A DNA stretch of 55,980 nt from Clostridia bacterium (GTDB lineage: Bacteria > Bacillota > Clostridia > Oscillospirales > CAG-272), in assembly GCA_017441005.1 (NCBI GenBank), contig JAFSAM010000006.1, positions 1-55,980 of the forward strand. Direction: 5' to 3'. Positions 3,527 through 44,916 of the stretch are shown here, piece after piece. The translations under genes were made by a program, and so were the position numbers. The notes beneath the pieces were generated by a model. The model did not search any database, was not told where the DNA came from, and worked only from the letters and a program-made list of their open reading frames with translations. Every line of letters starts with the position of its first letter. Position 1 is the first letter of the stretch.

Positions 3527-3555
3527 TTGACAATCGCAAAAATGCGTGCTATAAT
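3527..3555 (+). promoter_or_regulatory. Consensus sigma-A promoter for infC-rpmI-rplT
   Basis: TTGACA (3527-3532), a 17-base spacer, then TATAAT (3550-3555): a perfect match, as expected for a ribosomal operon. The transcript would start near 3562, leaving a leader of about 155 bases before infC. Confidence 0.9.
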
Positions 3556-3561
3556 GTTCGG

Positions 3562-3705
3562 GTAAAAAAAGAAGCAGAACACTCCGTTCTCACCTGTATG
3601 GCATAGACTTGTATGGGTCAATAATCGGTTTCTTGGCATATTTGTGTCAAGTTACTTTGGTTGTGCGGAGTTGTTGCTGATTTCGTGCAATTTTTTATTT
3701 TTTGT
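3562..3705 (+). ncRNA. Structured infC leader, candidate L20 autoregulatory RNA
   Basis: About 145 untranslated bases separate the consensus promoter from the infC ribosome site. The early segment AACACTCCG (3579-3586 region) can pair with CGGAGTTGTT near the end (3666-3675): CTCCG with CGGAG plus flanking pairs, a long-range closing helix. Bacillota infC-rpmI-rplT operons are known to be controlled by L20 binding a leader RNA. Position, length and long-range pairing fit, but I could not run a covariance model. Confidence 0.5.
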
Positions 3706-3719
3706 GGAGGTGTTTTATA

Positions 3720-4271
3720 ATAAAAAACACAAGCGCTAAGGATAACATCATAAACGAGGATATTAAAACAGAGCTGAAATGCTCCGACTCGAAGATGTTT
3801 AGAGTAATTTCAAACGAAGGCGAACAGCTTGGTATGCTTTCCTTCATCGATGCACTCGAAAAGGCTTACGACGAGGATCTTGACCTCGTGCTTATGTCCG
3901 CTCAGTCCGATCCCCCCGTATGCAAGATCATGGACTACGGCAAGTTCAGATTCGATCGCGACAAGAGAGAAAAGGAAGCAAAGAAAAAACAGCAGACAAT
4001 TGAAACAAAAGAAATTCAGCTTTCGTGCAGAATCGACGTAAACGACTTTAACACAAAGGTCAATCATGCTCACAGATTCTTGAAGGGCGGAGACAAAGTT
4101 AAGGTAATCGTAAAGTTCAAGGGACGTCAGATGACCCACCTTGATATTGGCAAACAGCTTCTCGAGCAGTTCAAGGAAGCTTGCACAGAGTTCGGTACTG
4201 TAGAAAAAGCCCCTGTGCTTGAGGGAAGATTTATGTCGATGATGATAGTTCCCGTCAAGAACACAAAATAA
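3720..4271 (+). CDS. infC: Translation initiation factor IF-3, AUA start
   Basis: IF-3 binds the 30S subunit, blocks premature 50S joining and proofreads start codon and initiator tRNA. The product has the family layout: N-domain with INEDIKTEL and SNEGEQLGMLSF, a charged linker, and C-domain with the FKGRQMTHLDIG core. There is no ATG, GTG or TTG at a usable distance after the ribosome site GGAGGTG (3706-3712). The in-frame codons at 3717 and 3720 are both ATA; ATA at 3720 leaves a 7-base spacer and gives 183 residues. A TTG at 3702 lies upstream of the ribosome site and is unlikely. A rare start codon is the known basis of IF-3 self-regulation (AUU in E. coli), so AUA here probably does the same. 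First gene of infC-rpmI-rplT. Confidence 0.93.
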   Translation: MKNTSAKDNIINEDIKTELKCSDSKMFRVISNEGEQLGMLSFIDALEKAYDEDLDLVLMSAQSDPPVCKIMDYGKFRFDRDKREKEAKKKQQTIETKEIQLSCRIDVNDFNTKVNHAHRFLKGGDKVKVIVKFKGRQMTHLDIGKQLLEQFKEACTEFGTVEKAPVLEGRFMSMMIVPVKNTK

Positions 4272-4360: not shown

Positions 4361-4552
4361 ATGGGAAAAATCAAAACACACAGCGCCTCTGCCAAGAGAT
4401 TTACTCTCACTAAGAGCGGCAAGGTAAAGATCAACCATTCGCATCACCGTCATAACCTCGGTCTCAAGAACGCAAAGAGAAAGAGAAGCCTCAGAAAAGC
4501 AGGTTACCTCAGCGAATCTATGGCACCGACCGTTAGAACACTTATTAAATAA
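4361..4552 (+). CDS. rpmI: 50S ribosomal protein L35
   Basis: A 63-residue, strongly basic protein with the family N-terminus KIKTHSASAKRF and the internal HHRHNL segment, full length for L35. L35 is a small late-assembly protein of the large subunit. AAAGGAG lies 12 bases before the ATG. It sits 89 bases after infC and 34 before rplT in the standard Bacillota order, with no promoter or terminator between. Confidence 0.97.
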   Translation: MGKIKTHSASAKRFTLTKSGKVKINHSHHRHNLGLKNAKRKRSLRKAGYLSESMAPTVRTLIK

Positions 4553-4586: not shown

Positions 4587-4943
4587 ATGGCAAGAGTTAA
4601 AGGCGCTATGATGACTCGCAAGAGAAGAAATAAAATACTCAAGCTCGCAAAAGGCTACTGGGGCGCAAAGAGCAAGCACTTCAAGATGGCTAAACAGGCT
4701 GTAATGAAGAGCGGCAACTATGCATACATCGGCAGAAAACAGAAGAAGAGAGATTTCCGTGCACTCTGGATCACCAGAATCTCCGCACAGGCTAAGGTTA
4801 ACGGCATTAACTATTCTCAGCTTATGCACGGCCTCAAGCTCGCAGGCATTAACCTCAACAGAAAGATGCTCTCCGAGATTGCAGTATCCGACAAGGAAGC
4901 ATTTGCAGCAATCGTAGCTAAGGCAAAAGAAGCACTTAAATAA
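4587..4943 (+). CDS. rplT: 50S ribosomal protein L20
   Basis: A 118-residue basic protein, full length, starting [18 protein letters not shown], with a long N-terminal helix that threads 23S rRNA and a globular C-domain ([20 protein letters not shown]). L20 is needed for early 50S assembly and, in Bacillota, represses its own operon by binding the leader mRNA; the structured leader at 3562-3705 is the candidate target. An ACAGGAGGA ribosome site precedes the ATG. It is the last gene of the operon and is followed by a strong terminator. Confidence 0.97.
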
Positions 4944-42796: not shown

Positions 42797-44596
42797 TTAT
42801 TTCTTGAGCTTATTTCCTACAACGTCGGCGAGGAGTGCTTCAAACTCATCAAGAGAGATAGCACCGAGGTCTTCGCCCGATCTGTGTCTGACGGAAATCG
42901 TGTTATTTTCAACGTCCTTATCACCGAGAATGATCATATAGGGCACCTTTTCCATCTGTGCATTTCTGATCTTGTACTTCAACGTGTTCTGGCTGTCGTC
43001 AAGGACAACACGGTATTTAAGCTTGGAGAGTCTTTCCTCGATCCGCTTTGCATAATCGAGAGCTCTGTCTGTGATGGTAAGGATTCTGACCTGCTCCGGT
43101 GCCATCCAGGTAGGAAGTGCGCCTGCATACTTTTCAATAAGGAATGCCAAAGTACGTTCATAGCAACCGAGCGAAGTTCTGTGAATAATATAAGGAAGCT
43201 TTTTCTGACCGTCGCTGTCAATATAGTACATACCGAATTTTTCTGCAAGAAGCATATCGATCTGGATAGTAACGATTGTATCTTCTTTTCCGAAAACGTT
43301 CTTGTACTGAATATCGAGCTTGGGTCCGTAGAATGCGGCTTCATCTATGCCGATCTCATATTTAACACCGAGGTTGTCAAGGATCTTACCCATAGTCGCC
43401 TGAGCGGTTTCCCACTGCTCTGCAGTACCCTCATATTTCTTTGTGTTTGCGGGATCCCACTGAGAGAATCTGAACGTGCAGTCTTCAAGAAGACCGATCG
43501 TTCCGAGGAAATACTTACAGAGGTTAAGGCAGTCCTCAAACTCTTCTTCGAGCTGGTCGGGACGAAGAACAAGGTGACCCTCGGAAATAGTGAACTGACG
43601 AACTCTGATCAAACCGTGCATTTCACCCGAATCCTCGTTACGGAAGAGTGTGGATGTCTCGCCAAGTCTCATAGGAAGATCACGGTAGCTTCTTGCCGAG
43701 TTAAGATATACCTGATACTGGAAAGGACAGGTCATGGGACGGAGTGCCAGGCATTCTTTCTCTTCGTCGTCGGGATCGCCCATAATAAACATACCGTCAC
43801 GGTAATGATCCCAGTGACCGGAAATCTTATAAAGGTCACGCTTTGCCATAAGAGGAGTCTTTGTAAGCAAGTAGTTATGCTCCTGCTCAATATCTTCAAC
43901 CCAACGCTGGAGAAGCTGGATAACGCGTGAACCCTTGGGCATAAGAATGGGAAGGCCCTGACCGATAGCCTCTACTGTTGTAAAGTAGCCAAGCTCTCTG
44001 CCGAGCTTATTGTGGTCACGCTTTTCTGCCTCCTCAAGTGCCTTCAGGTGCTCTTCGAGCTCGGGCTGTGTGGGGAACGCAGTACCCTTTATACGGGTAA
44101 GCATTTTGTTGTTTTTATCGTTCTTCCAATATGCACCCGACTGGTCCATGATCTTGAAAGCCTTAAGAGCCTTTGTATAGCAAATGTGTGGACCGACGCA
44201 CATATCGATATAGTCGCCCTGCTGATAGAAGGTAATAACGGCATCCTCGGGAAGATCACCGATATGCTCCACCTTGTATATTTCGCCCCTGCTTTCCATA
44301 AGCGCAATAGCCTCGTCTCTGGGGAGGGTAAAAGGCTTGATGGGGAGGTTTTCTTTTATGATCTTTTTCATTTCCTGCTCTATCTTCTGCAGGTCTTCTT
44401 CGACAAGCTTGGTGTCACCAAGGTCTACGTCATAGTAAAAGCCCTTTTCGTTTGCGGGGCCGTAAGCGAAATGAGCGTGGGGGTACAGTCTCTGTACTGC
44501 CTGAGCCAAAATATGAGCCGCAGAGTGGCGAAGAACGTGAAGCTCCTCCTCGGGAGGACAAACGTCTACTCTGCCATCATTGTAAATAACTTTCAT
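42797..44596 (-). CDS. thrS: Threonyl-tRNA synthetase lacking the N-terminal TGS domain
   Basis: 599 residues, class II synthetase. The usual enzyme has about 640, with an N-terminal TGS domain of about 60 residues; here only 20 residues precede the editing domain, which starts at LRHSAAHILAQAVQRLYPHA. The editing site includes HIGDL and CVGPHICYT. The catalytic core has RPMTCPFQYQVY (zinc Cys), VRQFTISEGH (zinc His) and HRTSLGCYERTLAFLIEKY; the anticodon-binding domain closes the protein. AGGTGA precedes the ATG, and the T-box terminator lies only about 40 bases upstream, so no room exists for a missed TGS part. Editing and catalytic domains are complete, so the enzyme should be active. Confidence 0.95.
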   Translation of the reverse strand: MKVIYNDGRVDVCPPEEELHVLRHSAAHILAQAVQRLYPHAHFAYGPANEKGFYYDVDLGDTKLVEEDLQKIEQEMKKIIKENLPIKPFTLPRDEAIALMESRGEIYKVEHIGDLPEDAVITFYQQGDYIDMCVGPHICYTKALKAFKIMDQSGAYWKNDKNNKMLTRIKGTAFPTQPELEEHLKALEEAEKRDHNKLGRELGYFTTVEAIGQGLPILMPKGSRVIQLLQRWVEDIEQEHNYLLTKTPLMAKRDLYKISGHWDHYRDGMFIMGDPDDEEKECLALRPMTCPFQYQVYLNSARSYRDLPMRLGETSTLFRNEDSGEMHGLIRVRQFTISEGHLVLRPDQLEEEFEDCLNLCKYFLGTIGLLEDCTFRFSQWDPANTKKYEGTAEQWETAQATMGKILDNLGVKYEIGIDEAAFYGPKLDIQYKNVFGKEDTIVTIQIDMLLAEKFGMYYIDSDGQKKLPYIIHRTSLGCYERTLAFLIEKYAGALPTWMAPEQVRILTITDRALDYAKRIEERLSKLKYRVVLDDSQNTLKYKIRNAQMEKVPYMIILGDKDVENNTISVRHRSGEDLGAISLDEFEALLADVVGNKLKK

Positions 44597-44629: not shown

Positions 44630-44916
44630 AAAACAAAAACCCTCGGCGGCAAAAAGACAAAAGTCTTTGCCGTCAAGGGTGCGTATATATAAATGCGCAC
44701 GGTTCCACCTTGATTATTAACTTTAGGAATAAAAACCGTATATCTTTAACGCAGATAAAACGGCAATGCATACTCAAAAAAATTTCCGCATTGCGGCTAC
44801 GGAGCGGTCTTCGTTTTACCGGATCTTGCGAAGGCTCCCAGCAAATGCCCCGCTCTCTGTAAAGATCTTTTATAAAACTACTCTTTCCATCAAACGCCTT
44901 TAAAATATCAATTTCT
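44630..44916 (-). ncRNA. T-box riboswitch controlling thrS (specifier ACC, Thr)
   Basis: The leader holds the conserved T-box AAGGTGGAACCGTGCGC (44711 to 44695 on the minus strand), which pairs with the uncharged tRNA end. A Stem I region with AGAGAGC and a GAAGACCGC specifier loop gives the codon ACC (44806-44808), a threonine codon. A Rho-independent terminator follows: CCCTTGACGGCAAAGAC pairs with GTC...GCCGCCGAGGG (44640-44679), then T-rich sequence (44630-44639). Uncharged tRNA-Thr should favour the antiterminator and thrS expression. Confidence 0.93.

Follow-up and report, generated by a model that had tools for sequence, protein, structure and literature searches.

A probable AUA start codon for infC in a Clostridia bacterium, and the exchange of AUU, AUC and AUA at the same site among its relatives

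In E. coli the gene for initiation factor IF3, infC, starts with AUU and is under IF3 autocontrol, and in Streptomyces infC starts with ATC while sigR, which starts with GTC, is repressed by IF3 (both from passages of PMC5472188). In the relevant part of PMC6097659, B. subtilis infC has an ATT start and belongs to an operon controlled by an L20-bound leader and a terminator. AUU is stated for infC of both E. coli and B. subtilis in a passage of PMC1805508, and excerpts of two further papers give ATT as the infC start in Listeria (PMC13068326) and GTG in red-algal plastids (PMC3667073). A section of PMC9845219 cites the title of an arXiv paper on genes that prefer non-AUG starts. Initiation at S. 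aureus infC was mapped to AUA by retapamulin ribosome profiling, and the authors of that study suggest that infC is autoregulated as in E. coli (PMC13009471, in the portion drawn on here). AUA at infC is therefore already known, and with the S. aureus case in print the AUA described below is no longer surprising in itself; the broader pattern, in which AUU, AUC and AUA drift while AUG is avoided, is the more interesting part. A search of open-licence papers in PubMed Central found no published tally of the start codons that infC uses in Bacillota, and such a survey may exist elsewhere.

The window, by which we mean the whole stretch of 55,980 nucleotides analysed, comes from a gut-type Clostridia bacterium, whose 2.1 Mb draft genome in 83 contigs is 94% complete. 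The nearest named records are metagenome bins of Bacillota, Clostridia and Oscillospiraceae, the best four with 59-63% protein identity. Positions 268-520 of the window have at least 62 matches in its own genome, many of them in pieces and with 76-100% identity to portions of it (40 of the 69 initial candidates were scored), which looks like a high-copy repeat family. The genes infC, rpmI and rplT follow one another as one operon on the + strand, with these features:

3527-3555, + strand: promoter TTGACA, 17-base spacer, TATAAT, the -10 being preceded by TG (the scan scored 12 of 12 against the consensus; a consensus assignment only)
3566-3700, + strand: L20-leader-like RNA (RF00558) upstream of infC-rpmI-rplT (40.3 bits, E 1.4e-6)
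3659-3703, + strand: terminator-like stem (3659-3692) with a T-rich tail, in which TTG 3702 begins (terminator scan and sequence)
3706-3712, + strand: Shine-Dalgarno (SD) element GGAGGTG (sequence; position conserved across relatives)
3710-3730, + strand: predicted hairpin of 7 bp, GUGUUUU/AAAACAC, whose loop contains both ATA codons (z -2.83 when 3690-3760 is folded)
3717-3719, + strand: upstream tandem ATA, a less likely alternative start (spacing 6 from GGAGG; codon variable in relatives)
3720-3722, + strand: probable ATA start codon of infC (comparative evidence)
3720-4271, + strand: infC, encoding initiation factor IF-3 of 183 aa if read from the ATA (TIGR00168, IF3_N, IF3_C, PDB IF3 chains)
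4361-4552, + strand: rpmI, ribosomal protein L35, ATG start (PF01632)
4587-4943, + strand: rplT, ribosomal protein L20, ATG start (PF00453)

The identity of the first gene is secure. In profile searches its product scores 197.9 bits against TIGR00168, for which the cut-off is 60, and both IF3_N (PF05198) and IF3_C (PF00707) are above their cut-offs, so that the gene encodes IF3; IF3 chains in the PDB are also matched. The L20-leader-like stretch lies between the promoter and infC, with the terminator at its end. It was found by searching 501 bases with the full model, and its score is below the gathering score of 58.7; none of 20 loci tested had a match to L20_leader (RF00558) at the gathering threshold, and relatives have sub-threshold matches in the corresponding position. 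The fold of the leader RNA is more stable than those of shuffled sequences (z -2.66). By analogy with the published precedent, the operon may be controlled by L20 through this leader.

An earlier note on this DNA had proposed that infC starts with AUA, on the grounds that GGAGGTG is followed 7 bases on by ATA, that another ATA adjoins it, and that ATG, GTG and TTG are missing at the proper distance. Each of these observations holds. Exactly 7 bases separate the SD element from ATA 3720, ATA 3717 immediately precedes it, and the reading frame runs TTG(3702)-TGG-AGG-TGT-TTT-ATA(3717)-ATA(3720)-AAA-AAC. From the in-frame stop upstream as far as the conserved INE motif of IF3, the sole in-frame ATG, GTG or TTG is TTG 3702, which lies 5' of the SD element.

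To place the start, loci were gathered by protein similarity, independently of the start codon. The sample comprised five genomes of the genus (one of them the window's own), 80 named contigs, and genomes sampled from the family, the order and the phylum, of which 185 of 196, 274 of 295 and 146 of 149, respectively, had an infC match. Beyond the regions returned by the searches, 100 were fetched for the family, 40 for the order and 40 for the phylum; sampling within tiers was thus partial, and starts were examined in loci L001-L322. Of these 322 loci with an infC match 316 are distinct, and removal of the six duplicates and of four loci without the anchor motif left 312 for rule-based tallies. 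Two rules were used. The first, which is unbiased as to codon, reads the in-frame codon at a given spacing from GGAGG in the 279 loci that remain after removal of 33 with a weak SD. The second, a picking rule applied to all 312, considers ATH, NTG and CTG codons only.

The comparison that the earlier note had suggested strongly supports AUA as the start of infC in the window. All five genomes of the genus carry GGAGGTGTTTTATAATAAAAAAC at the same place, with ATA ATA AAA AAC in the same position, and virtually every relative sampled has ATT, ATC or ATA at the codon aligned to 3720. Under the spacing rule, the codon at spacing 8-10 is ATT in 120 loci, ATC in 106, ATA in 42 and another codon in 11, that is, ATH in 268 of the 279 distinct strong-SD loci. 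Elsewhere ATH codons are few (16 per 279 at spacing 2-4, 32 at 5-7, 2 at 11-13, 7 at 14-16 and 5 at 17-19), and the signal is therefore specific to the start position. The 11 exceptions, one TTG and ten others, are SD mis-assignments or cases of shifted spacing with an ATH codon still nearby. In 51 of the 279 loci, 17 of them ATA, an in-frame stop is followed by no NTG codon before the conserved N-terminus of IF3 (INE motif), and ATH is therefore the only reasonable start there.

The picking rule gave a concordant picture. It placed 304 of the 312 loci, with ATT in 134, ATC in 115 and ATA in 55, after one locus (L199) was changed by hand from ATA to ATC. Sorted by the codons available, 299 of the 312 distinct anchored loci have ATH only, five have ATH plus a TTG (the additional TTG lying close to a G-rich run), and eight were left for inspection; an NTG codon as the only start at the site was found by the rule in none of the 312. 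The eight unplaced and four unanchored loci were judged by eye to be ATT or ATC, with L076 ambiguous because an in-frame ATG and GTG sit in a weak SD-like region. None of the 316 distinct infC loci, 304 read by rule and 12 by eye, has NTG as its only start at the site. Judged from its sequence and from comparison with these 316 loci, infC of the window starts with a codon of the AUU, AUC and AUA class behind an SD element and has no usable AUG, GUG or UUG. With L199 corrected, ATA is the start in all 5 genus loci, 32 of 134 from the family, 7 of 47 from other families within the order, 4 of 41 from elsewhere in the phylum and 7 of 77 from named contigs. The start codon and the codon after it are linked in L001-L322: AGC comes next in 105 of the 134 loci with ATT, and ATA is followed mostly by GCA (17) or AAA (14) among the 56 counted before the L199 correction. 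This association may be a matter of lineage history or a context effect.

A gene caller restricted to ATG, GTG and TTG would choose TTG 3702, which is an accepted start codon from which the frame is open; the protein would then have 189 aa, and ATA 3717 and 3720 would be ordinary isoleucine codons. However, TTG 3702 has no SD in front of it and begins in the T run of the terminator. It is present in only two of the five congeners (L001 and L002) and absent from L003, L004 and L005, which have no ATG, GTG or TTG near the SD; L003 has no NTG codon whatever from the in-frame stop to the INE motif, and relatives can have an in-frame stop that overlaps the SD or lies after it. As a start without conservation or SD and within a terminator tail, TTG 3702 was rejected, and we regard it as highly improbable. 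A start at ATG 3795 has still less to recommend it. It is the first in-frame ATG, but it lies within the conserved part of IF3, and initiation there would remove residues 1-25, among them the INE motif and a portion of the match to TIGR00168; this truncation of the conserved N-terminus led us to reject it too, and we assign it practically no weight.

The choice between the two ATA codons is closer. A start at ATA 3717, or at both ATAs, is in keeping with the tandem ATA ATA in all five congeners and with a spacing of 6-7 in 6 of the 304 rule-placed relatives. Against it, spacing is 8-10 in the other 298 (L199, corrected by hand, among them), and the codon at the 3717 position differs between relatives (GGC in L086, TCT in L088, ACT in L089, ACC in L093, and also CCT), whereas that aligned to 3720 stays ATA, ATC or ATT in the nearest relatives. 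Because the 3720 codon stays ATH while the 3717 codon varies, 3720 is the likelier start, and initiation at 3717 is improbable.

The 3' end of the SD element lies within the stem of the predicted hairpin at 3710-3730. The hairpin is predicted in all five congeners, and L093 retains the pairing by means of a G-U pair. The start lies in a hairpin loop in 5 of 5 genus loci, where shuffled downstream codons give an expectation of 3.0, and in 78 of 134 family loci (60.1 expected; 77 of 134 by another count), 30 of 47 order loci (21.2 expected), 13 of 41 phylum loci (12.2 expected) and 34 of 77 loci from named contigs (32.8 expected). There was no general gain in folding energy for start hairpins among the genus, family, order, phylum or named loci. 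With an excess over codon-shuffled controls that is modest outside the genus, the hairpin holding ATA ATA is not relied on as a regulatory element.

An unusual initiator tRNA was also considered as a reader of AUA and set aside, as the usual anticodon stem GGG-CTCATAA-CCC is present in three of the five genus genomes, in genes called tRNA-Met(CAT). The window's draft genome has no match to this stem, and its single one-mismatch match is not a tRNA; CTCATAA searched alone was too unspecific for use. The missing stem is probably an assembly gap. Of 32 tRNA matches in the window's genome 30 loci were scanned, and two of these are tRNA-Met(CAT) genes (L329 and L342).

We conclude, with a probability of about 0.85, that infC is translated from the near-cognate AUA at 3720-3722 behind the strong SD at 3706-3712, as part of an IF3 feedback loop. 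The strong SD would set the AUA as the start, and initiator Met-tRNA would read it through a third-position mismatch. IF3 would reject such mismatched initiation complexes, and plentiful IF3 would therefore leave its own mRNA poorly translated while scarce IF3 would let translation rise, the outcome being a feedback loop on the level of IF3. Published precedent suggests that the AUA is used in vivo, and the most likely role of this start is to let IF3 limit its own production; that it would have the same self-control role as the AUU of E. coli, as the earlier note supposed, is a reasonable inference from that precedent.

It could instead be that the AUA start merely keeps IF3 low, with no IF3 feedback in this lineage. 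Non-canonical starts yield about 10% of the expression of AUG in S. aureus reporters in poor medium (a passage of PMC13009471), and among open-licence papers in PubMed Central we found none that tests IF3 feedback in Clostridia. However, low expression could presumably be attained with a weak SD, yet the SD of infC is strong, and throughout the sample it is infC that retains a near-cognate start, not rpmI or rplT. Located by homology as a control from the same operon, the start of rpmI is ATG in 135 of 141 loci and that of rplT in 135 of 138. The restriction to infC therefore fits an IF3-specific role, and low expression by itself is, in our judgement, an unlikely account.

Across the loci compared, a near-cognate AUU, AUC or AUA is conserved at the infC start, which is never clearly AUG. 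We consider it about evenly balanced whether, in Bacillota infC, the conserved element is the third-base mismatch and not a particular codon, with AUU, AUC and AUA drifting freely and AUG, although only a single substitution distant, kept out. The window's genus would be one case in which AUA has become fixed, its tandem AUA AUA lying in the loop of a predicted hairpin, and the set point of IF3 may depend on which codon is used. If the feedback is real, the free exchange of AUU, AUC and AUA without AUG amounts to a phylum-wide natural experiment on what IF3 senses. There is also a practical consequence: gene callers limited to ATG, GTG and TTG misplace the IF3 start here, making the window's frame six residues too long, and very probably do the same in many relatives.

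A T-box leader (RF00230, 102.2 bits) lies at 44672-44903 on the - strand, immediately 5' of an ORF (42797-44596, - strand) that was assigned by eye to threonyl-tRNA synthetase. In E. coli thrS adjoins infC; here, unlike that arrangement, the putative thrS stands apart from infC in the window and has a T-box of its own.

Set beside the described systems, the locus shares most with S. aureus, in which the same gene has the same AUA codon and a strong SD; that start was mapped experimentally, whereas the window's is read from comparison (PMC13009471, same portion). With E. coli it has in common a near-cognate AUH start on infC as an IF3 sensor, but there the codon is AUU and regulation is proven genetically, while in the window it is AUA and the feedback would hold by analogy (PMC5472188, in the passages used). 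Streptomyces infC and sigR likewise have non-canonical starts subject to IF3, as that of the window's infC may be (same passages), with other codons, ATC and GTC, and in another phylum. The B. subtilis operon has the gene order infC-rpmI-rplT, an upstream leader with a terminator and an AUH start in common with the window; it differs in using ATT and not ATA, and the window's L20 leader falls short of the Rfam gathering score (PMC6097659, relevant part).
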